A DNA stretch of 64,000 nt from NCBI GenBank assembly GCA_003693705.1, contig RBZT01000364.1, positions 1-64,000 of the forward strand, written 5' to 3'. The translations under genes and the position numbers were made by a program. The notes beneath the pieces are model-generated. The model saw only the letters and a program-made list of their open reading frames with translations. It was not told the origin of the DNA and made no database searches. The stretch comes from Polymyxa betae (Eukaryota > Endomyxa > Phytomyxea > Plasmodiophorida > Plasmodiophoridae). This document shows, piece after piece, positions 20,191-48,194 of the stretch (positions are counted from its first letter, which is position 1; every line of letters starts with the position of its first letter).

Positions 20191-21487
20191 ATGTTTTCGC
20201 CATGTCATGGTGTGCTCTTGATCTTGTCAACGCTATTGGGGACTAGTCTTGCCCAGGATGCGTATGAATCCATGAGTCGCTTGGCATCTGCATCATCCTA
20301 AACAACGTTTTAGGTCTAACAACGAGGACAACGATTCCGAATCTGTGTGGATTCAGGTCTGTTAATCTTCTGTTTATTGCTATTGCATTATTTTGACATT
20401 CAGCTTGAAATGCAAGCAAGCAGTGTTTCAACATACTAAAGTCTACAAATTTCATTTATTGGTTTTCTTTCCATCATCAAGTTTCATCTCAGCTGATGTT
20501 GAAGTAACATTCACCAATGAACTAGCTTTTAGTTTACACTGTTTTAGACAGCGTTTTGGCCTAGTCGGCAAACCGATACAGAGCCGTTCTTCGAAGTGAA
20601 CTGGCCGACAACCGATGACGAAAACGAGCCAGCCGAATCGGGGCCCCATGTCATCATGCTGCCGCACGATCGCCATTGGGGAGCCCAATTCACGGTCGCT
20701 GAAACTGTGGAGAAGTTCCCTGAATTGATCGCACCTGCTGATGTCCTTTCGCTAGAAATTCGCCAAATTCAGGTATCATGATGACTGTCAGAACGGTCAA
20801 AATATTCAGGCTTTATACAGTCTAGCAATTCGTACGTGATTGTCCTGGAGGTCGATGATCAGGCCTTTAATGCGACTCGTGCTGTTCATTATATCGATCA
20901 TATCCTAAATTCTGAAGGGCGCCTTATCAGTGAGAAATGTCACACTCCGTTTTAAATCCCATTTAGACGTTATTGCAGAGACTTTATTACATGAAGCAGG
21001 AACTGGGCATAGATTTGCTTCTATTCCATTAGGTACATGTTATTTCTCTTATATAACTCTGCTTTTTTGAGGCTGTATTTAGACATGGTTGATTTCTGGC
21101 GATATGACATTCGAATCACTCCGGAAGCGATCGAACCAGGCGCCCTAACAGCTCTTGTAGCTTCTGTAACCGATGTTGATATGATATCGTCTTCGTTCTT
21201 CAACATTCCCGGGATGGTAAGTTCTGCGGTTATGAATAAGAAAAGAGATTTCATATCATTTCGGCTAGCGCGCGAAAAAATCGCCTCTCAACGATTGGCT
21301 GGCGACGCGACAGAATATCTGGCATTCTGCCAGAGATGTGCCGCTTGGACTAACGCTAACGACACGCTACCTCCGGGTCGTTGGCCAATACGCTCTATAT
21401 GCAGAAGTAGTGCAGCATGATCCTTCCCCTGAGCCAATAACTGTGGAATTTAATCCTAGTTCCGAAGATACAGAAATTGAGGTCTGA
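20191..21487 (+). CDS. secreted or luminal protein of unknown family
   Basis: ATG 20191 opens a signal peptide (MFSPCHGVLLILSTLLGTSLAQDA). This is spliced at 20258 to an acidic exon (SNNEDNDSESVWIQ), then through an unusually long intron of about 190 nt to TAFWPSRQTDTEPFFEVNWPT. Later exons encode beta-rich sequence (HVIMLPHDRHWGAQFTVAE; SNSYVIVLEVDDQAFN; VDFWRYDIRITPEAIEPG) and a last exon with a helical stretch and acidic end (PITVEFNPSSEDTEIE). Introns are GT-AG. The next gene is PIG-X, an ER membrane protein in the same orientation about 135 bp on, but I see no homology between them. No domain recognised. Confidence 0.5.
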
Positions 21488-21622
21488 ACTTGCCATTGCT
21501 CAATTTTATTTTCGAAAATGAGCATCTCGAATTGCTATTTATCGTGTTTTACAGTTTTACTCTTTATTCGTTTTGATTAATTGCTTTTTTTCACGCGTAG
21601 GTTATTTTGTCGCATTGGAGTC

Positions 21623-22662
21623 ATGACCAGCAGCTCGGTGGACGAATTCTTCATGTTGGTGGCGGCCAGCGCCGTACTGTTAGCCTTTCAAGGTTTTGCT
21701 ACCTGCCTTACACTGCATTCTCTAAATGCCTCCTTAGTCCAATATGGTACGATAATGTCCAGAAGGCGAAAATTATTCGCCGATTGGTGGGGAATGGGTT
21801 TCATCGGCATCTGGAGACATCGTTGCTTTTGAAATCGGACATTCCTGCCCCTTGTAATGTTTCTCTAATGATAATGGAGTTCCTGCCAACAGGCGCTTAT
21901 GTCGACCCAGACGAAATTGAGGTATTGCTGTATCTCTGTTTGTTGCATTCTGGCAGTTAAAATCCCTGTAGCGGTTGCGGCGGTTTCGAAATATCGATGT
22001 CTCAGTCATTGGCGATCCAATCAATATTGAACATCCAGCGTCAATGTCGACACAAAACGTCGTTTTTATCCATGTAAATAATGTCACAAGGTGCTAAACA
22101 ATTTCCCGACAAAGGTTCGTTCTGAATTTTTGTTAGAGAAAATTCTGATATGCAATGGTTCAACATTTCCGTTCCTATCCATTTGCGATATCAGCTTCCT
22201 GCACACGGGACCAGTTTCATGGATGTCGTCTTCCCCCCTCCCTCCGTGTTCGTTTCGTATTCAGGAACCGAACGTTCGCCGAGGTGCCCGAAAACCGGTT
22301 TGTAATCTAGCGCTATTTGTTCTTACACTAATGTTGGAATAAGGCACGATATGGCCTCAACCATTTTTGGTCGAATCTCATTTGCAGCAATGTCCTGGAT
22401 GGAACAATGTTTTGATAGAAAACTTTGCTGAAGATAGGGATCTGGAAAATACTGGTTAGCCTGCTTTTCGTGTTTATTTATGTGTTGACATGTTTCAGAG
22501 GCAAGCGTTCCAAGAGGCAATTCTAGTCAGCACCAGTTTGTACAGCTTGTGACATTTGCGTCGACTTCACTTGGAGCAGCTGTCATTCTCGTCACCATCT
22601 GGATATCAAGCAGGTCATCTGCAATGCAATCGAAGCCCGATATTTCCAAAAAAGCCCAATGA
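21623..22662 (+). CDS. PIGX: GPI mannosyltransferase I subunit PIG-X
   Basis: ER type I membrane protein that stabilises PIG-M, adding the first mannose to GPI anchors. The signal peptide (MTSSSVDEFFMLVAASAVL) joins through a 59-nt intron to WYDNVQKAKIIRRLVGNGFHRHLET. The family signatures follow: CNVSLMIMEFLPTGAYVDPDEIE (human DIPAGLYVDPYEL), the RNIDVSVIGDPINIEHPAS strand, and VPIHLRYQLPAHG (human LPVHCRYHRP). The last exon carries the transmembrane helix (VTFASTSLGAAVILVTIWI) and a short Lys-containing cytosolic tail, stopping at 22660-22662. The intron positions were placed by reading frame and GT-AG rule. Confidence 0.82.
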
Positions 22663-22663
22663 A

Positions 22664-22879
22664 ATGTTCAGTTTTTTACAAGAATGTTGCCCTGGTATTG
22701 CATTCATAGGTTATCTTTCGAAATCGCTTAGCGATATTTCTCTTTGGCTTGGACTATTTCTGTTGCTAGTATTAGCGAAACGAAATATTGAAAATCCTGC
22801 TTTCATACTTCAAATCGTTTGGGTTGCACTTGCTTTTTCACCGATTGCTACTCACCGATTGCTACTCTTCGTTGCTTGA
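22664..22879 (+). CDS. 71-residue hydrophobic frame, doubtful
   Basis: Begins 2 bp after the PIG-X stop and encodes two hydrophobic stretches (ISLWLGLFLLLVLAKR; ILQIVWVALAFSPIA). It contains a perfect 14-bp tandem duplication (caccgattgctact). It may be PIG-X 3-prime UTR read by chance rather than a gene; no homologue recognised. Confidence 0.2.
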   Translation: MFSFLQECCPGIAFIGYLSKSLSDISLWLGLFLLLVLAKRNIENPAFILQIVWVALAFSPIATHRLLLFVA

Positions 22880-22908
22880 AACTCGTCACAAAGTTTCTTT
22901 ACCTACCC

Positions 22909-23529
22909 ATGAATCCCGACCAGGATCATGTATGTATTGCTCTGTCGTTGTAAATGACACCTAACTGGCTCTAGAATGCACCTTCGTATCCTATTATGTC
23001 AGTCAATGCAGCCGACATTCGACAGATGTCCAAATTAGCTGCAGATTCGGAACGACACCGTCATATGGCGCTTTGCAAATCCACATGTAAAGATTCTCAT
23101 GTAGTTCAAACGATGTTCAATGCAATGCGACCTGAGGCTTATATCCGACCCCATCGCCACCGGGATATCGAGAGCCGAATTCGTTATATTGTCTTACACG
23201 GAACCATCGCCGTGGTGATGTTCGACGAGAATGGACTCATTATCTGGGCCGATAAATTTTCGTCTGGTGATAGGTTTCTAGCTGATATCCCTGGCTGTGT
23301 CTATCATACTGTGATTTCCTTGGATCCAGATGCTGTTATTTACATGATTAAGCCAGGACCATTCGGTGGATCGGGAGATAAGATATGGCCGGACTGGGCT
23401 CCTGAGGAATTGGAGAAGGACAAAGCCAACCAATATCTGGTCTCGTTGAAATCTAAGCTAGCGCCGTTGATTGAAAATGAGATTCCAATCAGATCTGATG
23501 CAAATATTCTAAAAAATATTTCGATTTAA
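22909..23529 (+). CDS. WbuC-family cupin protein
   Basis: Exons 22909-22929 and 22975-23529 (45-nt intron, phase 0) give 191 residues. The body is a cupin with MRPEAYIRPHRHRDIESRIRYIVLHG, giving metal-binding His residues, followed by VVMFDENGLI, IPGCVYHTVISLD and the WAPEEL end. This is the order seen in the WbuC cupin family found in bacterial polysaccharide clusters. Reaction unknown. The family is bacterial in the main, so transfer into this lineage is likely; the intron and local codon use say it is settled. It follows PIG-X in the same direction. Confidence 0.75.
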
Positions 23530-24136: not shown

Positions 24137-28378
<4,242 letters not shown>

Positions 28379-28554
28379 TCTTTCAGTTCCAATCATGTTT
28401 ATCCAAGGTCTTAAGGATCGCGACCAATACTATCGCTTACCAAGGATTTTATTCGTGTCTGTAATTGAAATAGTATTTTATACATTGTTGCTAATATAGC
28501 TTAATTTGACATGCTGTAGCCCTGGTAGCGCTCTCCTTTGATTCAGGATAGACC

Positions 28555-28573
28555 AACCATTGTTGAATGGTTG
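28555..28573. repeat. small perfect hairpin between convergent genes
   Basis: AACCATT GTTG AATGGTT forms a 7-bp stem with a 4-nt loop between the ISWI stop and the end of the minus-strand VPS13B half. It may sit in overlapping 3-prime UTRs. No function shown. Confidence 0.3.
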
Positions 28574-28631
28574 ACTTCAGCGTGGCAGCTCTCCGTCATG
28601 AAATTAAAAATGATCAGGCTTGCTACAATAT

Positions 28632-31600
28632 TTAAATTTTTGAAGACATAGGTGCTAATGACACGAGAGCTAGTTTGAATGCATTGGCTTGGTTGACGTC
28701 CATAGACACAATAATGCGGCTGACGTCGATTGATGCCTGCGTCAGCGATGATGTAACAGCAGCATTTGCTGAAACTGGAGCGAGCAGAATGTTCCCATTG
28801 GTGTCAGTTATGGAAAAATCTGTTAATGTCATCGATAAAGGCGAGATAGCAACAGAAGGCAAATGGAAAGAGAGTGAAGGGCTGGATCTATAACCAAAAA
28901 CTGTCGGAAGGCGCCGAATGTGGTACGCATCTTGCAAAGGCACGAAAATAATAACTGGGGATATATTGACTGCCAGGGACGATGGCTTCCATTTCAAGTC
29001 GCTAGACTCTCTGTCTTCAGGCTCCGAAGTGTTTGGTTTGAATTTTATTGGTAGAGTGCTCCTGAGAATGGTTATATTAGCTGACGAAAAAAAGAGAGAT
29101 GGTACGACTAACCTATATATCTGAAATAGTCTGATAAAATCGCAGAAAACGGAATCCCAAACTAGTTTTGCAGGCGAAATATTAACCTAACAGAAATTCA
29201 TAATAGCTCATATATAGGTGAACAACTTACTGAGACATCTCGTTTGGCTGAAATTTCAATATCTAGGAAAGCAGAAATTTCTGTCGACAACAAACAGCGA
29301 AGTTGTCCCCGCCGTGAAATATCAATAACAACTCTCATTACAGTGAACTTATGAGCATCTGGAAGACTTCCCGAAGCAGACAGGCGAATGATTTTTAAGG
29401 AGAGAACAGCATTAACGAACATAGCATCGAAAAAGCAAAGCGTCCTTGTTGGCCGAAGCCCAATCAGTGATAAACGAAGCTCATTTACAGAGCAAAAATA
29501 CTGGATGATGTCTGCTAAAGCAGCTCCGGACAAGACAATCAGATAAATGTGATGGAGACAAAAAGTAGCCAGCATATCTTTGAAGGAGAACGAATACCTT
29601 TTTGTCTGAGGAACCATCTCGCAATTAAGTTCGTTTACTGAGAAACAGCTGGAAGTCGACGGTTGCACCATTTCCCTAAACATATGCGCTTTTAGTGCCA
29701 ATGACAACATTTTCACAGTTGCTGAGGAGCAGGAAATCCTTCTGGTCTGAGCTCCATATTCAGCTGCCAAACCTGCAATCTAACAACGATTTCAGAGGTA
29801 AGAACTGAAAAGCGACCTTTCGGGTTTTACATGGAAGGAGACAGAGTTCAGATTCGAATAGAGTTCATCTTCCTTCCAATCTGGCATATCTTCGATATGA
29901 AGAGTTAAACAGAAATTTCCAAGCACTATCCCAGATGTGGAGTTGAGCTTCCTCACTAATGAGGTTGAGCCTTTCTTGGGTTTTTCAATCGGAATGAACT
30001 TGAACAGTTGTTCGAATAACACGACCGATGACGAAGACTTCAAATTTAAAAGCACCGCTGCCGATCGTATAAATATAGTATTGTACTGGTTGTCCTTGTC
30101 GGCAAATGAATGCAGGCATATTGAATTTGAGTAATCCTGCACTCGTTCTCTTATGGGAACGAAATGCGTATCAAACCCATGTCTCTCTAATGATTGTCGA
30201 AATTTGTCCGAAAGATCTGTTGCAGAGAGTTGAATATTCAAAAAAGGCATGAACTCCTTGCAGTCGTCATCCCCAGTTATAATAAGCAATGGTAACAGGG
30301 TAGATTGATCAACAAAGTTGAGAGATTGTAACGAGATCGAAAGTCGCTGATGTGAAATTTCTTTGATTGCAAGAATAGACAGATGTCTAGCATGCAGAGT
30401 GGCGAACATGAATGATATTGAATAGAAATGAAAAATCACGGATGGCGCTTGAATTGAAAGAATCATAGTATCGCTGGGCATATATTCACCTGCATGTGGT
30501 TAGTTTTCAGGAATGCAAAACGAATCAGCATACTAATATCAACCACAGAATTATTGTCAGGGGGCACAGCAAGGAGATCCCAAGCCCAAGAGCCCCAGGA
30601 ATTGCTCCTTGGTTCGTCTGAGGCGATCGACATCCCTCTGAACATGTATAAGTAAACATTTACAGTGTACAGCTTGCGAATACCTAGAAGTGGCAGGCGC
30701 AACCAAATCAACCGGATGTTTCGTAGATGTTGATTGAATCGATTGTGACATTGCCAACAGCAATTGAATTTGCTCAGCAGAAAGTGAAATTTCGAGAGGC
30801 GAAAGAGCTAAAATGTCTGCCTAAATGGAATTATAAAACCTGTCCAAAGGAAATCGAACAAATCTGTTACTTGAAGTTTTGGTCCTGATTTCGGGACCGG
30901 TGTCGAGATCGCAGTCCTACGAACGACGCGAACAGATGGTGTTCGATACATTCTTATCCGAATGTCAAGATCTGCTGATAGAATCAGCTGCCACAGGAAA
31001 CCATGTCTTAGAGAAATTTCCAACCTAGGCCTCTCAGCACCGTCCGAGTTGCATATGATGGCCGGCCATGGCTACGTTCCTGTAATCTAGCTTAGAACTC
31101 ATAGTTTAGGTTCCCCTCATCCTAACATCTTGAAGAGAAACTTCTAATGTACACAAAGAAATCACGTAATGAGTGAGACGCCACGGGGCAGAAGGAGGTT
31201 CGATCTGAACAGCCTCCCATTCCACGTTGGTCGGGCGAACATTTGCCGACGCAAATGAGATCTGAAGACAGCCAAGATCAGGACTAGACAATGTTAATGA
31301 TAGATCTTCGATATTGACAACAGCATTAGCAACAATACGTTCTGTATATCTAGTGTTAGCGAACCTTAAAGTAAGCACAAGAAAACGAACCTAATAGCGA
31401 CTTCGTCCATGAATTCGATTCACCTCCTTGGTTAACCGATTCGTTGCTATTGCCTTCGATTTCGATAAAATCCGAATCGATGGCACCGTCTTGAAGGTTT
31501 GGTAATGTGCCAGGTTCTTCCTTGGGTTTCGATAGCTCCCGATCTATCGAAAGCCTGATCTTCATTTTTGATAAAGTAATTTCTACACTTTTTGTAGTGA

Positions 31601-31987
31601 TCGAGGTCCAGGGGATTCGAATCTGAAGCCTGAGACGATTCGTATAAGCGGTTCCTTGAACGCAACTCTACACGAATTGCACTGTACTTTCCAATCAAAG
31701 CGTAATCAATTCGAAGTTGTTGATCATAACCTAACATACGCTTTACATGCGTTAGAACGAAAGAGAAAACAAAAGGTAAATCACCCACCTGTAAAACATC
31801 CAGTCGTAATTCAACACCCTTCAGCACAACGTCTCCGCCTGAAGCACTTTTCAGAATTCCCCACGTCAGCTATTTAGTCATTAATACTCCAAAGCGAAAG
31901 ATTCAAGTCCGAATCAATCTTATCGAGATACTGGTTGGCGAATTTCATTATCAAGCCGGACAGCGTCCGCTGCATGCTGCCCAGCAT
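28632..31987 (-). CDS. VPS13B (N part): VPS13B-like lipid-transfer protein, N-terminal half
   Basis: Bridge-like lipid transporter family. ATG at 31987 starts a chorein-type N terminus (LSGLIMKFANQYLDKIDSDLNLSLW; GDVVLKGVELRLDVL; IGKLQIRIPWTSITTKSVEI). Next comes the second-strand region (ERIVANAVVNIEDLSLTLSS). A stretch SWGSWAWDLLAVP matches the VPS13B-specific GWVSWAWSFVPA. Repeating beta-strand segments continue to the stop at 28632 (LALVSLAPMSSKI). Short GT-AG introns are frequent. The product, roughly 950-1000 residues, lacks the VAB, ATG-C and PH-like parts, which appear on the opposite strand from 32252. It is convergent with ISWI. Confidence 0.8.
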
Positions 31988-32251
31988 CTTGGCTGTCGTA
32001 TTTTCCGTTCAGCCAGTCACTAGCGGGGAAGCCAAATGAGCGCATTCAATCGAAACATGCCACGACGATGGCTACAGAGATGTCGACAATGCCGATATAA
32101 ATGATGGATTTGTCAATGACGATCGCCGAAAAGCTTTTACGCCATCGACACGGAGACAGTGGGTGCAGCCCGCCCTATGTCGTCTCCCATCTGGAATCGT
32201 TGTCATTATCCCCCCATGTGGTCTGGCGTGTAAATACTGACTAGGACGCCT
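31988..32251. other. junction between the two VPS13B halves
   Basis: A 264-bp interval between the divergent halves. On the plus strand a frame from about 32040 to 32222 lacks ATG but can splice by a GT-AG intron of about 59 nt (near 32223-32281) into EFSSTFTEISCNV of the C-terminal half. If that exon is real, almost no room remains for a promoter. If it is not, this is a compact bidirectional promoter. It is the candidate inversion breakpoint. Confidence 0.4.
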
Positions 32252-35200
32252 ATGGGCAATGCCATATGTGCTCATGCAGAATTCAGCTCCACATTCACTG
32301 AGATTTCTTGTAACGTCGAATCAGTGAGGGCGTCGCTGAAGGGGAACAGCCCCAGCACTCTTCATATTGCTATTGATACCATCTCTTCGACCTATTTTCA
32401 GAACCATGACGTCGCCGTCTCAGTTTGGTGCAGTTTGATCATCTGCTGCGATTTGCTTATTGGTGTTAGATAGCCTCCACTTCAGTGAAGTCTTTGTGTA
32501 ATGGGTCTGAGCGGGATTTGCTGAAACTACGAAATGGCCTGTCATTTGATAAAAGGAGGAATGGCGCCCACTTAATTTTACGCCCTTTAATTGCCCTCAT
32601 CGATATCGATTCCTTGAACGCTGGTGCTGAAGTTGTTACTGCTGCCATACCACTTCTTCCACCGAAATCTGTAGCATCCCCGAATCAGGCAGTTCAACCT
32701 GCCTTGGAAAACCTTTGTGTTTCTGTGGCCTCAACTGAAGTTGCAATTGCCGTCGACCCTAGTGCTGCGTTTGCTTTGTCTTTCCAATCAATGGAATATC
32801 ACTATAACTGTTCCTGTCGAGGAAAGCTCAGCGGACGTGTTCGCATCAGTCGACTCAAACTTCTGACGATATTTTGGAAAAAGGAATGCGATGATTATCG
32901 AACCTCGATCTCAAGTGATATCGATCTAGAAGTAATGCTAACTCCCAAGCTGGATCAAGTCGCGTTGACGCTGGAATCTGCTCTTACTTTCACTATCTCG
33001 TTTGCCATGATCGCGTTAGGTCAGAGGCTGCTCTCCAAAGTCGCACAACAGAAATTTTCTGCACAGAAACCCAACAAGACCGTTACTCCTAGGCTCGGTT
33101 TGAATATGCGATTTCACAGTATTGCTTTGGTAATTACTGGCGACAATTTCGACAGTATTACATTAACTGTAGCCCATATAGATGTGGGCAGCGAGAAAGT
33201 AACAATTGGGAATGTGGCCCTTCTGTATTCGGATCGTACGAACACGTCTTCGATTCTGTCATGCGTTTCTTCACCCGTCGCGTCCATCGATATAACTTCT
33301 AATTCCATCCTCGTAGAGCTGACAACATTTCGTGTTTGCGTCCCGCTTAAATTTCTAGCATTCTTGGCCTCTGTGCCGTCATCACCAAGCAACAGCAACG
33401 TGGAGGCAGCGGAAATTATAATCTCTAAGCGGCGAAACTCATTACGTATTTTATTACCACTGTTCGATTTCCGACTCCAAGAGCAAGAGCAAACTTCAGT
33501 GTTAGCAATGGTTCAGATTTCTGACCTTTTTGCTCTCTGTTTGCCAACGATAAAAGAAGCTGACCACGTCTACTCTAACACGAACTCATTACGCTGCACG
33601 TTCAGCGTAACCATTGCCAACAATGTTTTACTTCAGCAAACCCTAATAAGTCTCGAGCAAGTTTATTCAACCAACGAATTTTCAAGGCTCAATAGTTTCT
33701 ATCCGGTGTCCCGAAGAGAGTCTTTATCAGTTTCTACAGATTCGATCAATATTCAGCTCTATTCTGAACAGATCAAGCCGATCCAATCTATCTTAGTGTC
33801 GCTTAACGGTCTTCCATCATCCCAAACTCGCAGCGGCCGCAAACACAGCATAACGGCACATGTTTCATCTCATGATGATTTACGCTCGCTTTATATTGAC
33901 GATGGCGCCTTTGAGCCGAAACCTGGTCGCATCACGCTGTCAGATAATGAAATCGCATGGTGCTATTTAACCTCTCGCTGTATCACTCATGTATCTCTAA
34001 GCGCTTTACACATTGCATTTGAAACTACGTTGACGCTGTAATCAAATCCTAGTTGTCTGGGTACGTTTGCTAATTTGGAAACAGATCTGCCGTAGACGTT
34101 GTCACCAATGAACGTTTTATCGTTGATCGAATCAGAGTCGATTTAAATCGAGCAACCGCGCATCAAGTCGTTTACTCTGTAATTGCGGAATCATGGGTCA
34201 TCTCATGGGCAGCATCGTCGCTATTAACCCCAGCTGATCTTGTGCAAATCATGCGAATTGATTCGATATCAGGGCCCACCGTTTCCAGTAGGTTGTTTTG
34301 AGACATTTATTGCCCATGATTGCACTATCACATTAGCCTTAGTTCCTTGTAACTCACATTATTATTGCTGCTTGTTGAAATCGCAAAGGAAAGTTCTGAC
34401 TATGCCTTGAACAGGAATCGCATCTTTAATTGTGCCCTCGCTATGTGTAACGTTAACATCAAGGAAAGACGGTTTGGAAGCGGATCATGCCATAATATCT
34501 GCTGAAGAGCTGCGCTCAAAGGCATTTACGACCAACAGGCTTTCAGTTATGACCATGCATATGAACCGTTTCAGGGGGAGTATTTTCCGGTATTCTGACT
34601 TAGCCGAAGTCCCAATTGCCTTGACACATGAAATTGGCATTCTAATGATCAATAACGCAAATTTTCCTGGATCTGTAGTTCCGATTATGTTGCAGCAGTG
34701 CGAGAAATCTCGGGTGGTTAAAGTATCAATATCGAAAAAGCTGAGGTTGAATGTCAGCAGTTATGGTATCGATGCACTTTTATATGCTATTGAATCATTT
34801 CGTGATACACCTCAATCCGTGCCATTCGATGCAATCATATTCGCCGCCAACACCACAAAGCCTCATCACTGTAGTCAGATTCTCCTTCGTAATGATATAG
34901 GTGTCCCCATTCAGTATCGGCAGGAGGGTCAATTATCAACTGCTCTGTTATCACCGGGAGAGATGCATAACTTCACTTGGCCTTCGTAATTTTTTTCATG
35001 CTTGATGACGCTTTTCTCACTTATGATAGGGTCATGAGGCAACAGTTGCGAATATCCTGTCATCCTGGAATATGGTCAGATCCTTTCACTCTAAAGAATG
35101 CCACTGCAATTCGTTTACCGAGAAAGCAAACTTTCACCGATTTGCTTTTAAAGCAAGATGCGGCTCTGTATTCGTTCGATGCTCAACTTCATGTCGCATC

Positions 35201-38200
35201 GAAATTGACTTTTGCCCTTGAGTTGAAGATTATCACCATATCGGATGACGATTTAGAAGAAACCTCTACCTATACCCTGACATTATTGCCTGAATCAGGA
35301 ATCACACCAGTTCCTTTATGGCTGCCAAACGATCGGTCTGTCAATATCGAATATCAACTTCGTCCATGCATAGATGGCATCGAATGGCTCTGGGTAAGAA
35401 TAGAATCGTTTCAATTCCACTTTTCCTGCTCGTTTAATTCCTTGGATGCTTCTGCTTTGCCTCTCGTCCTTGGCTTCTTTTTTTATCTTTGTGTGATCTT
35501 TTGACTTAGTCTATAGAGTACGTTATCAACAGGTAGCGTGATCGTTTTTGAAGATGTTGACGGAAAGCACAAGCGCTCCGCCTGGCTGCATTCTGATGGT
35601 CGCACTATACGCCTGGCTCCTGCCGTTAAAGTCACTAATCAAACCGAATCAAATCTTTTCGTTCGTCTTTCTCAAACCGAGCCAATTCAAATTGATTCCC
35701 ATCAATCTGTGCCCGTTTACGATTTTGATGAGAGATTACAATTGGCGGCTGCCATTCACATTGAAACCATTGATGTTGCAGAAACCGCTCTCCTCCTATT
35801 TCCGAAGGAAGGCGAATCAGTTGCAACGTGCGTAATGTTGCCGTCGCAGCAAATGATGATTGTAGTTGCTACGTTGGATCCAGATCAGGGCTTACAGCTT
35901 GACCTTTTTTCCAGCGTCACATTCCGCAATCTGACAAGCCAGCCTTTCTCTGTGCTGGATCGCAACGACTCTGAGATTTCTATAAGCCCGAACGGTGTCG
36001 TCTCGACTTTTTGGGCAAATCCAATCGATGCTCGCTTTTACGTCGTCTACAGTGATGACGCTTTACGCAGCCAACAGCTTCACTGCAAGAGGTAATGTGC
36101 TACACATTCGCTTTTGACGTAGTTGCTAACCTTATTTACTCAGATCGGGATCTTTTGCTATTGATTTGTGTTCTGCTGTCAAGCTTAGTGTTACTAGGAT
36201 TGTCATGGTAATTCATCGCGTTTTTGCTGAATTCATTTTGTTCATTATTTACGTTGCAGTCAGTATCATGGACCACAAGCACATCATCGAAATCGTACGA
36301 CTCATCATCACGATGCGAGATAACACTGCAATCTCGATATTGCTTACATAATCGCTGCCCCTTCCCCATCTTTGTTCGTCCAGAATCACCAACGCCCGAT
36401 GCTATCGAGGTTATTACCGGTAACAGTCTTTTGTGGAAGCTGCGCCTTCAAATATTTACCTTTCTGTAGTGGCTGCCGGAGACAGCCATGATATTTTGGG
36501 CTGGTGTCTCGGTGCGCCTCCAATCCAGGCAATACGAGAGCCTCCTTCATTTGAATCTGGAGCCTGGCTATCTGACAATTCAGCATTGCGTCTGACCCGA
36601 TCAGCCGCTGATAAAAATCGATGGGGATGGTCAATGCCAATTAATTGTTTTGCAGGAGGTATCATTCTCTACTTAGATGATTTCTGGCTGATATTGCCTG
36701 GTAGAGAATCGTCAACAACGAGCACTGATTAAACTACGTAATCGCCAATCCGGCTTCGATATCGTTCTGTCGTGTGTTCGATTACGCGAAGACCATGTCA
36801 CACATCTGGTCTTGCTCAAGTTCTGACAATTATTCAACTTTGTTCTATTACTAACTCTGTCATAGCGATGTGCAAGTTCCACTCGTACTGGTGAACGCTA
36901 CTCCATATAAGCTCTCATACTTTGCATCATCGCTGAGATCTCCTACTCCGTCAAACCTGAACTTCATTAAAACTGATATCGAACCACATCAAAGCACTCA
37001 GATTCCTCCTGGTAAACACAACCATTACTTTCTTTTAAACTAACTAGAAAAACAGAGGTATCCGAAGATGAGCGGATCTTCACGAATGGCGTTACGCCAA
37101 TGGCATTGCATATTCGTGGAGTCGGTACCGAATGGTCTCCAGAACCCATTCTGCTTCGTAATGGTGTTCGTGCTCAATCTTTAGAACTGCCCTACATATC
37201 ATCAGGGTCATTGCATGTCCCGCAACCTCATATGCTAGGAAGCTCGCCAGCTCGAGCGGTCAAATCATCCAACAAACTGTTAGCTCTAGAGGTAAACATG
37301 AACTGTTAACATTTTCGACGGCTCGTTTATTTTCTTCATTATATCTAGCTTTTGCCATAATTTTGCTATAAGCTTGTTTAGCTTTGAATAAAAGTTCTCA
37401 GATCTGTGAGATAATCCAATAATCATGTTGTTCAAGGTGGATTGCCTAGACCGGAATGGGACACTGGTTACAGTGATCGGTGTAAAAGACCATTCAGAAG
37501 AAGCAGTAGCGCTTCCAGAACACTCGTCGATATTGGAGATAGCTGCAGACTGTATTGAGGTATGCTTCCTGACGGCTTCAGCTGGCGCCGGATTCGCTGT
37601 CATTCTCGAGGATGTGGCCCTTTGCATAAATCAGCAGTTTGAACGGGTGTTTGAGTGTTTCTCATTTCGATTTGCAGTTAACAATTTCTTAGCGCTATGC
37701 CCGGATTTTACACGAACTCTCGAAACCGTTTGTGCCTTGCCGAACTGCTTCTCTACGAATTCGTTCCTTTCAACTGGAACACACGGCTAATCCTGTCGAA
37801 TATCCCATCGTCGCGCATAAGGCAGATCATGAGAGCAACAGTAGTTCCATTGAAATCCTTGTCTGTTTTGGTACCCAAATTGATTCGAATGATGAGCACC
37901 AGCAAACCCCGCTTATGTATATTATGCATGCGGTTCATATTCAGGTTGGGAAGATGCTCCCTTCCTCGCTTGCAATGACCTCTTTGTGCAGAAATTGAGT
38001 ATCTCGTTAGCGCCTTTTCGCTTATATATCGAAGACGCCTTCATATCAACGGTAACGGAATTCATCCACGAGCTCACGAGATCAATTTTCAAGATATATG
38101 GCCAAACGGAATCTGCTTCTCAACCTGTTTGAACCCTTGTGCTAATTGCTTCCATCCAAATGACAAAGATCTAGGTGCAGGCTAGCGTAGGATGGCGCTC

Positions 38201-39830
38201 GGATCCGGAATTCGTTGCCTTATTAAATAACTCAAGTAAGCCTCGATTTGCTGTGCACCATTTATATATCAGCTCTATCGAACTCAGGTTGGTTGTGATA
38301 TCTGGCTATTTCTTAGTATTTCTTGTTATATTGACTGTCAGATTGACGTATTCCGGGTCTCGGCCGTATTTAGCCTGCCAGTCCTTACCGATCACGCTTG
38401 CCGCTTTGGAGCTATCGTCGGTTCTATCTCCTACTGACCGTCTGATCAAGGAGCTTTCTGCGAATTATCTCGCCGTAATTCTTCTTCGTTCTCATATAAT
38501 CTCCTCTAAAGTACAATCAGGATGTGATCATGATTGCACCAGTTCTGTTCGGCTCAATGGATTTGTTGGGAAACCCAACGCAGCTCATTAGCAGCATATC
38601 TCGAGGTATTGGAGATCTTGTCAGATTGCCAACTCGTGCCTTGACTCAAGGTAGCCTCTACGGAACTGTTCATGGCATTTATTCTCAGCATTCTTAGGGC
38701 CAAGGGCTTTAGTTTGGGCTACCTTGCAGGGTGTCGGATCACTGCTTCATAATATGAGCGAAGGAACTTTGACTTCAGTTAGCGGATTTGCCCACAGTTT
38801 GGCTCGGAATGTGGGTGGAGTTTCGCCTGATCACTACCATCTTTTTCAAACAAATCGCAATTCAGCAGCTGTAAATCAGTTTCTGACTGCACTGCTCGTT
38901 GTGCTAACCTGGTTCAGATTCATCAACGTGGGATCTCGACAGGGCTGGTTAATGGCGCCACCAGTCTTGCTACGGGCTTGGTATTAGGCGTAACAGGTTA
39001 ATACACGAATTCTCCATCCATGCTTATCATGTGAGACTAACGCATGCTGACAGGAGTTGTCAGTGCACCCATACGTGGAGTTGCCCGCCAAGTAGGTTTA
39101 TTAATTTAAACATTTTAAGGTAATTAATGTATATAGGGTACATGGGGATTTGTAAAAGGCGTGGGTGCTGGGCTAGCTGGCCTAATCACAAAGGTAAGAT
39201 TTGAGTGGTCTCAATCTGACCTTATAATGATTATTAGCCCGTTTCTGGAGCGTTGGATATGGTTAGTGAAACTAGCCGAGGAATAGCTGCTAGTGCTGGT
39301 CTGTCACCAACCTTTCCTGCGCTTAAGTACCAGCAAGAGCCAACTGCTCATGTAAATCATCTGTTGATCTGATATTGACGGATTGTGATTGTATATAGGA
39401 CGATATCTTTGGCCAAATTTCAACTCTACGTTTGAAAGCAATATCGCAGAATATGCAGGAGAGCTACAGAAAACACATTTACGCCAATAGCGTCCTTGAT
39501 GCAGGTTCTTATTATATTATTGTATTATTATGCTTTCTGTGATTATCACCATTCGTTTGTTTCATAGCTGTCTTACATCGCTTATTTGAATCTTTAGATG
39601 GAGCATTGTTATACGAACGTGCGTTGATTGTTTGCACGCATGCAACAATGCATATAATAGCTCCTGGATCGGACCGGGTTGTACAATCTTTGGCATATAA
39701 CCAGGTTCAAGTGAATTTCTCGGGTTCTCACTCTGTTGAAGTTAGACATAAGGGAGACGTTTTGTTTCATTTCAAGACAGACCATACGACCAGACAGTCG
39801 TTCGTCAATTGTATATGCCAGAGTCTTTAG
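32252..39830 (+). CDS. VPS13B (C part): VPS13B-like lipid-transfer protein, C-terminal half
   Basis: The first Met at 32252 falls inside a VPS13 beta-repeat, not at a chorein N terminus. A 518-residue open stretch (32485-34041) and later exons form the beta groove; 34432-38200 covers the VAB-like repeats (VKVTNQTESNLFVRLS; IHIRGVGTEWSPEP). The ATG-C region at about 38560-39320 reads LLGNPTQLISSISRGIGDLVRLPTRALTQGPRAL, then NMSEGTLTSVSGFAHSLARNVGGVSPDHY, which is closest to VPS13B (KGTLTSITNLATSLARN). The PH-like end reads LYERALIVCTHATMHIIAPGSDRVV and stops at 39828-39830. Numerous short introns are present. The gene looks intact except for its missing front, which lies on the other strand. 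Confidence 0.82.
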
Positions 39831-39984: not shown

Positions 39985-42457
39985 TTATACTGCCTCAGCT
40001 GTCCGTTCCAGTATCACTTTCACATCAGACTCGGAATGCTCCAAAGCGAGAGCATAGATATCTGAATAATTACTGGCATAGTGAACACAGATCTCGCCTT
40101 TCACATAGTTAGGCAGCTCTTCAAACTCGGCCTTGTTTTCTGCTGGAAGGACAATATCAGTACAACCAGACCGTCGAGCTGCCATGACTTTCTCTCGAAC
40201 GCCTCCGATTCGTAATACTTTCCCGGTTAAAGTCACTTCACCAGTCATGGCTAAATTGTTGGTGACTGGGCGGTTCAAAGCCAAAGACAATAAAGATGTG
40301 ACCATTGCACAACCGGCGCTTGGTCCGTCTTTCGGGGTCCCACCGCATGGTACATGCATGTGAATGGCACATGTGTCCAGCACCGAATTTTCAGGGTCGA
40401 TTTTGGCTAAAAATGCCTTTGCGTATGACAATGCAATATTTGAAGATTCGGTCATGACTTCACCCAAGTGTCCAGTAGTCTTTAGCGACGCCGAACCTTT
40501 GCTTGCGATGCTTTCGATATATAGTGTTTGCCCACCATGAGACGTATATGCCAATCCCATAACAACTCCAGGAGGTGTTCTGTCATGATAACGATCGCTC
40601 ATGTAAACAGGTAAGCCTACGTAATCGCAAAGATTCTCAGGAGTTATCACGATTTTCTCTTTGAACTCTGCAGCGACCTGCAATGTCACTTTTCGGAAAA
40701 TCTTATCGAGGTGCTGGCGAAGATTACGAACACCCGCCTCCCTGCAGTATCCTCGAATTAAAACACCAAGCGCTTCCTCAGTGATTTCTGCCTTTTCGTC
40801 CGTGAGGCCGCAATCGGTGAGTGCCCGAGGCACCAAATACTTTTGAGCAATGGCAATCTTTTCTTCCGTTACATAACCAGAAAGCGAAATGACCTCCATT
40901 CGGTCCAACAACGGCCGAGGGATCGTTTCCAGAGTGTTGGCGGTCACTAGAAACAGAACTTTGCTGACATCAAAGGGAACGTCCAGATAATGGTCCAAAA
41001 ACGAATTGTTCTGCTCTGGATCTAACACCTATAAACATGTTAGCAAAAATAGCATTCCAAAAAGACAATAACTCTACCTCAAGCAAAGCTGATCCGGGGT
41101 CTCCGTTAACGCCCCTTCCAACTTTATCGATTTCATCGATAAGCAAAACAGGATTGCTAGTCTGCGTCACTTTCAAAGCCTGGATAAGCTTTCCAGGCAT
41201 GGCGCCGACATAAGTTCTTCGGTGCCCTTTGATCTCAGCAACATCGGTCATACCGCCAACAGAGAACCGGAAGAATTTCCGATCGAGGGCTCGGGCGATC
41301 GACTTTCCAATACTCGTCTTTCCAGTGCCTGGTGGACCAACCAGACACAGAATCTTGCCATTGACGGTACCTTTCAAGCTGCCGACAGCAATCAGCTCCA
41401 TGATGCGCTCTTTAACGTCGTCCAAACCAAAATGGTCGTCGTTCAGGACTTGCCGAGCTTTATCCAGATTGAAATTCTCAGGTGTAGAGACACCCCAGGG
41501 TAAGATAGTAAGCCAATCCAGATAATTTCTCGTGACAGCGAATTCAGACGATGAAGGCTCTAGCCCGCTCAACTTAGCACATTCCTCGTTGATCGTGCTC
41601 TGGACGGGTTCAGGGATTTGTCGAGTGCCGCATCGAGCTTGGAATTTTGATAGCAGGACGTCTTTCTCGTCTGTCTCCATGCCGAGCTCCTTCTTGATCG
41701 ATTTCAATTGCTCCATCAGCACGAAACGTCGGTGGGTTTTGTTGCCGCCCGGGTCCATTTGGCGATGCAATTGCGATTGTACCTCTCCATAAGCGATCTC
41801 CTTCCTTAGCAATTGCAAAGTTAATTTCATTCGCTCGGGAATCGAAGTGCATTCGAGCACTGCTTGTGCAGCGGCATTGTCTACATTGGTAATCAGACCA
41901 GCAACACAGTCGGCCAGATCGCCGGGATTGGAGACGTCGACTTGCTCGACAATGGTGGAAAATTGCTCCTTAAAGACCGGGCGAAGTTTCAGAATCTCTT
42001 TGCAGGCCAAGACGATTTCGTTAGTCAACGCGGTTAAATCTTCAGTGTATGCTTCGTCGGCAATCGTTTCCACAGCAACCTGAAATGGGTCGGTGGCAAC
42101 AGCTTCAGTTGCATAAATTCTATTCAAGCCGATAACGACGACTTGCGATTGCCCTTGCTTATGAGGAAACACGCGAAGCACCTGGGCTAACAGCCCGGTC
42201 TGATGAATATGCTCGATTTTGTTAAAGGAGCAATCGTTCGAGACGTCTTTCGACATAAACAGGCCTACATTCATGGGCAGGCCGTCGCGAAGTACTTGCA
42301 AGGTCGAAGCGAACTTTTCGTTCGGTACTACAATCGGGGCAACAATCCCTGGGAAGATCGGCCTGCGATACAGCGGCAGTGCCAGCAGCGACGGCGGCGT
42401 CACGAGTCCGCCAAATCGCCGCCTTTGGATCAGCCTCGAGACAGTCATTGCAACCAC
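39985..42457 (-). CDS. LONP1: Lon protease, mitochondrial type
   Basis: ATP-dependent serine protease of the mitochondrial matrix. Exons 41078-42457 and 39985-41028 are joined by a 49-nt phase-0 intron and give 807 residues. The arginine-rich start (SRLIQRRRFGG) suits a short targeting peptide. The Lon N domain begins LPLYRRPIFPGIVAPI. The AAA+ module has Walker A GPPGTGKTSIGKS, Walker B VLLIDEIDK and LEVLDPEQN.SFLDHYLDVPFD, closest to mitochondrial Lon. The protease domain has catalytic Ser in KDGPSAG and Lys in GGVREKV. It is shorter than human LONP1 (959 residues), mainly at the N terminus, and has no C-terminal SKL, which argues against a peroxisomal Lon. Confidence 0.95.
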
Positions 42458-42849
42458 GATTGTTTATGACGATAACAGCATGAGGACCCACAGACTGTCA
42501 GGACAATGCCTGTCCAGCAACAGTCACATCCGTCATGATTGGGCACGAGGCGCAGCCAGCATCACTGACCTGAATACGGGCGCGGCCTTCATCGCCACTC
42601 TGAGACAGCACCCTTCTGCCTTCTATTCGGTTCTGGAATCGACGCGTGATATCGAACAATATCTCGTTCTATAAGCGCTTCCAATTTACAATCACAGCTG
42701 AATTACCAGCTAAAATTATAAAGTACTTACCCAGAGATCGAGTTTGCATTGAAGGAAGATTCATAAAGCTGTCTTAAAATTAGCAAATTCCGATTTATTG
42801 AACGGAGATCTGGTTTTTGTATAGTATAAATGAGAGGGCATAAACACAT
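42458..42849. other. intergenic, Lon to eIF5A
   Basis: About 390 bp with no supported gene. It holds the Lon promoter (Lon reads leftward) and the eIF5A 3-prime UTR. Confidence 0.4.
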
Positions 42850-43386
42850 TTACTGAGAAACGGCCTTGAACGAAACGATCATGCGGATCCAAACAGCAGT
42901 GTTGGGATCGACACCTTCAGGGGCCTGCAAGACTGTGACGAGAACGTCCTTGTCACCAGCGGCGAAAGCCTCCTGAATGCCATTGGACATTTCTTCGTCT
43001 TCCGGCAATTTAACGTCCTCGATGGGGTTACCATCTTCATCCATGATGTGGACGAAGCCATCGGCAACATCGATGACCTGGAATTCAGTCTTTGTGACAA
43101 TGGGGACCGAGACGTTGTGGGAAGTAGGAGTCATATCTTCATACTTCTTGTTGGTCAGCACATCAACACCAACGATGTTCATCTTGGCGTGTCCGTGCTT
43201 GCCGGTCTTCGAGGTCGACATCGACATAATCTACATACGTCGGTTAAAAACGATATCGAAGGGAGTCCGGGCCGTACTGACTTTGCATGGGTGGCCCTTG
43301 ATTTGGATGTATCCTCCCTTCTTCAAGCCGCCCGCCTTCAGCGGCGTCATCTTGGCCGCATTCTCGCCCGCTTCGACGTCGCCCAT
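42850..43386 (-). CDS. EIF5A: translation factor eIF5A
   Basis: Promotes translation of difficult peptide bonds and termination. Exons 43282-43386 and 42850-43230 (51-nt phase-0 intron) give 161 residues. The N domain reads [20 protein letters not shown]. The hypusine loop is [12 protein letters not shown], with the modified Lys in TGKHG, followed by [19 protein letters not shown]. The C domain keeps [13 protein letters not shown] and [11 protein letters not shown]-rich codons mark it as highly expressed, like RPS16 at 52045. Deoxyhypusine synthase and hydroxylase must be encoded elsewhere. Confidence 0.96.
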
Positions 43387-44211
43387 GATTTATAAAGACG
43401 ACGATCGGGTTTGAATCGGGAACTACAAGTCCGTTACGCAGTCCGAGTTGTTATGGGGCCCAGTACGAAGGTATTGCGACGCCCCTATTATCGGCAAGTC
43501 TCGACGCTTCCGGGAAAGGAGTGGCGACTGTCGTTCGTCGAGTTTTCCGACAGACACCCGAGGCAGGCGCCGATGTAAGCACCTTTGAAGGATCCGCTAC
43601 CTCCGACTTGGCGCGATTAGAACAAATCTCTTTAATCCACTTTCAATCTGTTATCCGAAATTGGTGAATTGTTCGGACGTTTTCGTTGTGCTTTTTGCCT
43701 CAATGTTTTAACGAACAACAGCAACTCAAAGCCTATGTCATAAAAAAGGTTTTAAATCAGACGTATATGCAGTCGCCATGTCGACTCTTGCATTTTGCGT
43801 CCTCACATTGCTTTTTATCTATTACGCCTCGAATACAATCAGATTTAGTGGGCAATCAAGTATAGCTAGTACGTCATACTGTTAGAAAAACGAGTCCAAA
43901 AAGGACCGAGTAATCTTTAGCAGACTTGCAATAAAACGAAATCGTGACGCTTTGCAGGAATGATAAATAAAGTGTAAATATGCAGGAATAACATACTTCA
44001 TCTTGAATCTGTCAGAATTTGCTGTCGACCGTTATTTTACGGAAAATGTCGATCAGAAGCTGAGTCTAAACATATACTTATTTTGCTAAAGTATATTAGG
44101 GATTGACGTCGATTGAAATATTATGTTAGTATGGAAACATGATTAGAGAAAAAAAATGCTATATACATAGGCGCTTCGTAGAGATGGATGATTTGGAAAG
44201 CCATCTGAAGG
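43387..44211. other. intergenic, upstream of eIF5A
   Basis: An 825-bp gap, the likely eIF5A promoter. It contains one 35-codon frame at 43778-43885 (+) with a single hydrophobic helix (STLAFCVLTLLFIYYAS). Such a micro-protein is possible but unsupported. Nothing else is seen. Confidence 0.3.
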
Positions 44212-44729
44212 CTACCTCGACATCTTCAACGCATTCTTGTTGGGCTTCGAAGACCTCCTTCGTACAGCATCACTGGGTCGCCTTCTTTTACTTGGCAATA
44301 CACACTCCTGCGGGCTTATGCTACGACTTCGCCGTTTCTTTGGCTTATCGCCGAGAACGTTGAGCATCTCTTCTGCTTCATCGCTAACATTGTCAATCTA
44401 CAACATAGCAGCCACCATGAAATATCCTGGACCACCATCGCAAGCATAACTCGAACCTGGTCTAGTGTTTGATATAAACGCTCTACGATCAAACGAGGCT
44501 CTTGCTCGATCTGCATGATATGTTCTTTTAAGCGAAGCGCAAGCAGTGCTTCTTCGTACCGGAGATGGCCAGTGATCATAACCTGCTCGACCTCATCATG
44601 ATCAACATGCTTCAATGGCAGAACGGCCATCATATCGCAGATCTGTGCAGGAGTTAGGGAATATTGAGACGCACGGGCCTGGAACAACGCCACGGCCTGC
44701 GACAGACCAGAATCGTCAGAATCTGACAT
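44212..44729 (-). CDS. small nuclear-type protein with basic tail
   Basis: Exons 44457-44729 and 44212-44397 (59-nt intron, phase 0) give 152 residues. The acidic start (MSDSDDSGLSQ) is followed by a helical region (VEQVMITGHLRYEEALLALRLKEHIMQIEQEPRLIVERLYQTLDQ). The tail holds basic clusters (KPKKRRSRS; KRRRP; VRRRSSKP) that would serve as nuclear localisation signals. No family recognised. Confidence 0.6.
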
Positions 44730-46765: not shown

Positions 46766-48194
46766 TTATTGGTCCTGAGCGGGAATAACGACATGGAGTT
46801 CGTCATCTTTCTGGAGAGTTGGAGTCGCCCTGTAAACGGATGCAATTAGTAACACAAAAGAGCGACAGTCCTCACATACCAGTTACATCCAGACTCGATA
46901 ACAGCGTTATTTTTACCTCGAACGATTCGGAACCATCCGTGTTCTCCCCTAAACCAACGATTAATAAACGTTCAGAAGTATAGCAAAGTAGTACCAGTAT
47001 GTTCCCCATGAGTTCCTACCAATCTAGCAGATTTGTCAAAATAAACTCAAAATGGATCCGCTACTGCAACCTACCCAATACTTCGTGTCGGTCTTGTGAT
47101 CGTAACCCCATCCGGCAATTGATATAATGTGATTAGCTTCTTGGAACTGATCTATAGTAAGAAGATAAATTGGCAGAACAACTCTTAAATCAAGAACACA
47201 GACCAGGAGCGTTGACGATGCCTCCGGTGTAGTCTTCTAAAGCATTAGCGTCAATCTGGCAAGCAATCGGACCACGGGCGTAGATTTCTGCCATCTGACA
47301 ATTGTTAGATGCAGGAAATAGTCGGTTTAGTAACTACCATCTCCTGCTCTCCGTGCGCTTCGCCATACTCTTCAACAAACCATTTTGGATAATCCTTGAC
47401 AGGGAAGCAGATACCGGAATCTGGGCTGCAATTTCGGCATTCTATGGTTGGTCAGCGCAAATGGAAACACTTCAAATAAAGCTCGATTACGATCCATGGG
47501 ATTACACTCGTCGTCTCGGGCTTTATATTGTTGGCACGTATCTTCAGGAATACCATTATCGTGAACCCATTCCTGAATCATTTAAGCACATAGCAAAGTG
47601 AGCACAGGAGGTATTTACGTAAGCACCACCGCCATCACCTCCGTTGCATGAACCGGCAACATCAGTACCACAGTTCAAAAGAACTTGGATAGACAGATTG
47701 ACTGCAGCAAATCAGCATCCAGATGTCACATTCTGAGACAATAGCCTCGTCATTACTCTCAGGGAAAGTAGCGTTACGCTTAATCTTGATTCTGTCAGCA
47801 AGCGCAGACAATGTTCCATGAGCCCAGCATGAGCCCTAAAAATGATCGCAAAACAACAGCTTTACATGATCGTGTGGACCTACACAGTATTGAGGAATAT
47901 GCTGGTTGAGATCCTTTGTACAATAATTCACACCCGAAACATTACGCCAATCAAAATGCTCGGGCAAATCATCCATCGATAACATCTCATGCGGTCGGGT
48001 GTTTTTTACAACTGCCAACAATTAAAAATTAGTGCCGACCAGAAAGCAAACGAGACCAGGAACTAACCTTCAAAAGTTCTGCGACCGGGCATCGTCCTGA
48101 TCTCGCTGCGTCGAGGACGATTGGATGAAAATCCTGTTGTTACCGTGGCCAAGATAGCTACATTAACCAGGACAACAAGCCATAGAGACGTCAT
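46766..48194 (-). CDS. CTSZ: cathepsin Z (cathepsin X) cysteine protease
   Basis: Papain-family lysosomal carboxypeptidase. A signal peptide ([21 protein letters not shown]) and a very short propeptide lead to [25 protein letters not shown] and LNQHIPQYC, where cathepsin Z differs from other cathepsins. [16 protein letters not shown] holds the catalytic Cys; [20 protein letters not shown] and [21 protein letters not shown] follow. The catalytic His is in [13 protein letters not shown] and the Asn in [11 protein letters not shown]. It ends [15 protein letters not shown] at 46766. Around nine short GT-AG introns must be removed; all key residues survive, so this copy looks functional. Its neighbour at 45296 is a dead duplicate. 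Confidence 0.9.

Follow-up and report, generated by a model that had tools for sequence, protein, structure and literature searches.

In the genome assembly of Polymyxa betae (GCA_003693705.1; 24.43 Mb, 541 contigs), two genes located on contig RBZT01000364.1 each encode one half of a VPS13B-type protein and stand head to head on opposite strands. The DNA analysed here, referred to as the window, comprises the first 64 kb of this 85,499-bp contig, and all positions are counted from its first letter. According to passages of Levine (2022; PMC7613979), the VPS13 proteins known so far are rod-shaped, carry a lipid groove and bridge two membranes. Both VPS13 ends do not lie on one polypeptide here, as they are encoded in the assembly by two genes on opposite strands. 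The presence of two head-to-head VPS13B halves, first noticed in an original prediction made from the sequence alone, is confirmed.

The hand model of the gene for the N-terminal half (N half) has its ATG at 31987 and its stop at 28632, exactly as originally proposed, runs without an internal stop and yields a protein that starts with MLGSMQRTLSGLIMKFANQYLDKIDSDLNLSLWSGDVVLKGVELRLDVLQ. The claims of a chorein domain at its beginning and of a SWGSWAW segment further on were likewise borne out: Pfam VPS13_N (chorein) matches with an E-value of 4.6e-18 and 64.9 bits, under the curated threshold of 80, and NSWGSWAW is found in the protein. Residues 1-349 match PDB entry 6cbc (E 1.3e-5), 36 of the first 50 residues are identical to those of protein P0001 from Plasmodiophora brassicae, and BLASTP aligns the N half with residues 1-975 of that protein at 27.5% identity (E 7e-86). 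As modelled, the N half has an intact chorein region, a feature of membership in VPS13B.

The gene for the C-terminal half (C half) offers two possible starts. The model adopted here begins at 32101 and uses a 52-nt intron (32228-32279), while an alternative ATG at 32252, the start originally proposed, gives 2080 amino acids and dispenses with the first intron. The candidate first exon of the longer version encodes 42 residues, and in a coding model its frame outscores the other five (2.0 versus at most -0.3). The stop at 39830 was confirmed, and GTLTSVSGFAHSLARN is present in the protein. A Pfam scan at E<=1 detected no chorein match in the C half, in keeping with the claim that this gene lacks the domain. 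Its C-terminal region matches solved chains of VPS13A (E 3.7e-24) and VPS13C (E 7.8e-23), and the predicted protein thus has a VPS13-type C-terminal region, a second membership feature. BLASTP aligns the C half with residues 1068-1233, 1278-1417 and 1534-2465 of P0001, the last piece at 36.8% identity (E 6e-155); within C-half residues 1651-1990 (37897-39348), 168 of 325 positions are identical.

Neither hand model has a broken frame: together they stay open over some 3,050 codons and 34 introns. The introns are all of the GT-AG type and measure 37-145 nt (median 48 nt). Gene edges were chosen by hand and many splice sites were picked by eye, so individual exon edges may be off. Of 12 window genes, most of them predictions, 2 have the sequence AATAAA within 200 nt downstream, namely the two halves, a number too small for use. 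At 44.5%, the GC content of the window is close to the values given for Polymyxa betae (45.1%) and Spongospora (45.7%) in parts of PMC6328671, the latter figure also appearing in a section of PMC12883290. A megablast of the window against plasmids gave no match, a result that is uninformative for a eukaryote.

The identity of the locus was assessed with the joined halves as a single query, for which 7,987 candidates were scored and 41 hits obtained. The best of these is P0001 (2,499 amino acids, E 3e-239), which carries the N-half and then the C-half matches, in this order, on one chain according to BLASTP. The same combination on one chain is seen in P0002 (2,238 amino acids; 8,472-bp contig), P0003 and P0010. 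When P0001 was in turn compared with the window by tblastn, 15 pieces were obtained (16 in an earlier run that covered more loci), of which the six within residues 1-975 all lie on the minus strand and the nine later ones all on the plus strand. The two halves are therefore complementary when aligned with a full-length VPS13B-type protein (N half 1-975, C half 1068-2465 of P0001). A midpoint-rooted phylogenetic tree was calculated for the C-terminal region from 26 rows, which were left of 29 segments of sufficient length once three carp isoforms had been removed. The window pairs with P. brassicae (support 99/96), and nine of the 26 rows, including the window and VPS13B of fish and starfish, are split from the other 17 with support of 100/99. 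C1a and C1b, two further VPS13 genes in this genome, fall among these 17; the C1a row was flagged for its composition. By this placement, the locus falls with VPS13B rather than VPS13A/C, in agreement with the assignment first made.

P0001 has its parts in the same order as the window; it is one chain, whereas the window holds two genes. A central part of the C half, some 590 residues in all, lacks a counterpart in P0001: within C-half residues 247-560 and 561-1150, stretches of 264 and 325 residues remain unaligned, which could reflect a real domain loss or a fault in a gene model. The record of P0001 is labelled as mitochondrial despite a contig of 1.37 Mb. Animal VPS13B, described as a lipid groove protein in the relevant passages of Levine (2022; PMC7613979), is on the same side of the best-supported split as the window, and the fish (P0003; 3,995 amino acids) and starfish (P0009; 3,114 amino acids) records are each one chain, again unlike the window. 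Together, the one-chain relatives and the position in the tree suggest that a single chain is likely the ancestral state of VPS13B.

How closely the two halves fit was examined at the seam. The last residues of the N half, VSMDVNQANAFKLALVSLAP, align with VSLDEKQASAIKLATAAILP of P. brassicae; BLASTP similarity ends at N-half residue 930, and the stop follows five codons on. The alignment of the C half resumes at about P. brassicae residue 1025 by eye and at 1068 by BLASTP, and P. brassicae holds about 50 weakly conserved residues in between, a stretch that would be compatible with a loop separating groove modules. When the joined halves were aligned with P. brassicae across the seam, 71 of 72 residues found a partner (13 identical), so little may be missing here. 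In a join test, all 15,665 pairs of cuts between 28600-28664 and 31988-32228 were considered. For 1,330 of them, undoing the flip joined the halves in frame and without a stop, with cuts within 28633-28664 and 32099-32228; the test extended no further than the upper end of either range. Given these open joins, the arrangement can be accounted for by a simple inversion, and on this sequence evidence a single flip of about 3.4-3.6 kb that cut in a variable linker explains it. Inverting approximately 28.6-32.1 kb indeed restores the N-then-C order of the P. brassicae chain, as had been claimed.

Table 1. Positions of the VPS13B halves, their parts, the presumed cut zones and the flanking genes in the window.
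Feature	Position	Strand	Basis and remarks
N half of VPS13B	31987 (ATG) to 28632 (stop)	-	10 exons, 935 amino acids; hand model
N-half exons 1-5	31888-31987, 31736-31838, 31391-31629, 31127-31341, 30925-31071	-	hand model
N-half exons 6-10	30684-30820, 30534-30637, 29831-30489, 29231-29779, 28632-29186	-	hand model
N-half exon with NSWGSWAWDLLAVPP, aligned to P. brassicae VSWGNWAWDLLAVPP	30534-30637	-	alignment
Left cut zone of the presumed inversion	28633-28664	.	join test; low edge is the stop codon, high edge the test limit
Between the halves: right cut zone and presumed shared promoter	31988-32279	.	sequence; promoter role presumed
C half of VPS13B	32101-39830	+	26 exons, 2113 amino acids; model in part from gene finder, in part by hand
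VPS13_VAB match, just below curated cut-off	34882-35105	+	Pfam scan
C-terminal region matching solved VPS13A/VPS13C chains	38376-39309	+	sequence match
Left neighbour, SNF2/ISWI-type remodeller, converging on N half	24137-28378	+	gene prediction; SNF2-rel_dom E 2.4e-85
Right neighbour, Lon protease, converging on C half	39985-44729	-	predicted extent; Lon_C E 3.6e-69 (39985-41028)

The two halves are flanked by genes that converge on them (Table 1). The stop of the SNF2/ISWI-type gene (28376-28378) was read by eye, since the prediction ended at 28222. From the start of the N half, the distance from ATG to ATG is 113 bp (32101) or 264 bp (32252). Predicted divergent pairs elsewhere in the window (7276/7492 and 48194/48477) are spaced like the VPS13B halves, suggesting that a short shared promoter may be ordinary in this genome. 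One member of the second pair is predicted to encode a papain-family cysteine protease (46766-48194; E 3.6e-17) with a hydrophobic start by eye and lies 283 bp from its divergent partner. Another gene model, at 20207-23529, matches PIG-X/PBN1 (E 9.1e-8) in its first 366 amino acids, and its remainder looks by eye like a second gene.

Five further VPS13_N matches were found in the genome (C1:45-54 kb, C1:176.7-185.7 kb, C366, C317:264-272 kb and C217), three of them above the curated cut-off. At the two C1 loci, frames run on uninterrupted over very long stretches (up to 2190 amino acids), whereas the VPS13B model contains 34 introns. In the locus on the minus strand of C366:108001-116500, an in-frame TAG at 5462-5464 separates frames of 555 and 585 amino acids, and an additional frame of 1015 amino acids follows; this TAG could be read through, lie within a short intron or reflect decay. 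Those VPS13-type loci for which both ends were located (C1a, C1b and C317) carry them on one strand in all three cases; no C-terminal end was found for the loci on C366 and C217.

The original prediction had named three possibilities: two working chains transcribed from a shared central region, one dead half, or an artificial inversion in the assembly. The grouping with VPS13B, the complementary halves and the order restored by the flip all held up, so that the prediction is supported in part, and two separately expressed chains seem the likeliest of the three. If the flip of 3.4-3.6 kb had arisen during assembly, the organism would possess one normal VPS13B gene, as its relatives do, and the open in-frame joins would be the expected result of undoing the error; a run of 19 N outside the window on the same contig (74452-74470), the only one in 23 loci fetched, further suggests that scaffolding took place. 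That same run also speaks to how such errors would look: joins between pieces without repeats normally leave an N run, scaffolding joins seem to leave marks here, and the window contains no N. An inverted repeat that could have driven the flip was sought and rejected. There are 34 inverted-repeat pairs in 28200-32700, and the 25 longest include none that links both cut zones; the longest perfect inverted match between them is 8 bp, which by our estimate is about what chance would give for the comparisons made. The absence of both an N run and an inverted match above 8 bp speaks against a repeat-driven assembly flip. Moreover, among the best candidates scored, the VPS13B region gave one match in the 24.43-Mb assembly and the search with P0001 revealed no other VPS13B-like place, so the separate full-length copy that would have spoken against the original prediction was not found. 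These features of the assembly, together with the same-strand ends of the C1a, C1b and C317 loci, favour a real inversion over an artefact, and we regard an assembly error as unlikely.

The main rival explanation is a real inversion that is young or damaging and without lasting function: one or both halves would be nonfunctional, or only some members of the population would carry the inverted allele, and the frames would be intact by virtue of youth. Intact frames and little loss at the seam are what a young event would look like, no relative that shares the split was found in searches that were themselves weak, and passages of Levine (2022; PMC7613979) list VPS13B as missing in Caenorhabditis elegans and Trichoplax and as not found in amoebae. 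On the other hand, each half comes with a start and a stop codon of its own and is conserved at its outer end, and the lack of any broken frame over the full length of either hand model makes a long-dead half unlikely. We consider this scenario rather unlikely. Far less probable, to the point of being very hard to credit, is that the halves are transcribed separately and joined into one mRNA by trans-splicing, as for Hsp90 of Giardia, an old gene likewise present in two separately transcribed parts according to sections of PMC8494341. A candidate acceptor does precede 32280 in the C half. However, the longest complementarity between the 3' side of the N half and the 5' side of the C half is 7 nt, matched or exceeded in 97 of 100 shuffles, compared with a stretch of 26 nt in Giardia Hsp90 (PMC8494341, in part), and the duplex energy is -100.2 versus a shuffled mean of -104.4. 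The Giardia-type mechanism was rejected on these grounds; unlike the Giardia parts, the VPS13B halves lack complementarity of intron halves and each has its own start and stop.

Against these rivals stands the reading that a real inversion split an ancestral VPS13B gene and that both halves are now made as separate chains. We hold it tentatively, with slightly less than even confidence. Several observations weigh against it. Neither a search with the N half (7,993 candidates of 514-1,636 amino acids) nor one with the last N-half exon (181 candidates) gave a relative with the split, none having been scored; both searches are weak because ordinary chorein proteins were not returned and plasmodiophorid proteins seem scarce there. 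The nearly gap-free alignment at the seam is weak evidence as well, because identity amounts to just 13 of 71, and P0001 is itself a gene model. An unrestricted gene finder placed the edges differently, extending the N gene to 33614 and the C gene on to 43395. The first C-half exon is no likelier a match to P. brassicae than its own shuffles (p 0.51), and the predicted fold of the last N-half exon is of low confidence (mean pLDDT 41) and was not used for the RBG groove. Of the modules originally assigned to the C half, the ATG-C-type region stood, given the VPS13A and VPS13C chain matches and the presence of GTLTSVSGFAHSLARN, although its "ATG_C-type" label is presumptive and was taken over from the earlier assignment, and the Pfam scan at E<=1 gave no family of the ATG_C region. 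The VAB-like part fell marginally short (22.4 bits versus a cut-off of 22.6, E 5e-5), and no PH family was detected at E<=1 by the Pfam scan, which was the only examination of the PH-like end.

In the favoured scenario of two separate chains, an ancestral single VPS13B gene would have been broken by an inversion of about 3.4-3.6 kb, with one cut in a variable linker, directly behind the codons for '...NAFKLALVSLAP', and the other in what had been the 5' flank of the gene. The start of the N half and its upstream DNA would have been retained, and a stop now follows five codons past the cut. The C half would now lie beside that same upstream DNA in the opposite direction and would probably be transcribed from the same short intergenic region, so that both halves are probably produced as separate chains. 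That both are in use is suggested by the clean frames and by the conservation of the outer ends. In VPS13 proteins, the chorein end contacts the donor membrane and the C-terminal end the target membrane. The N half would accordingly use its chorein end to take up lipids from the donor membrane, while the parts that serve the target membrane, the VAB-like adaptor-binding part and the C-terminal one, would come from the C half; the grooves of the two chains would meet end to end. This picture would require a genuine inversion in the organism itself, expression of both halves and assembly of the chains. Its most far-reaching form, an obligate two-chain bridge in which the halves made from one bidirectional region dock at the groove seam and lipids cross from chain to chain, we consider rather unlikely.

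The idea of a lipid bridge built from two chains end to end has a counterpart in the tail-to-tail dimer of SHIP164, which is treated in parts of Levine (2022; PMC7613979) as a prediction, with purified dimers reported and called not conclusive. SHIP164 forms a homodimer of whole proteins, whereas the window encodes two different halves of one ancestral protein. In a literature search confined to open-licence papers, no VPS13 or other bridge-like lipid carrier that is split or made of two chains was seen in the passages of Levine (2022; PMC7613979) consulted. If the two-chain reading is true, P. betae would possess a natural two-piece VPS13B, evidence that the bridge can be cut within its groove and still be tolerated; it would offer a ready-made pair for testing the passage of lipids across a seam and would show cleanly how one inversion can bring about gene fission.

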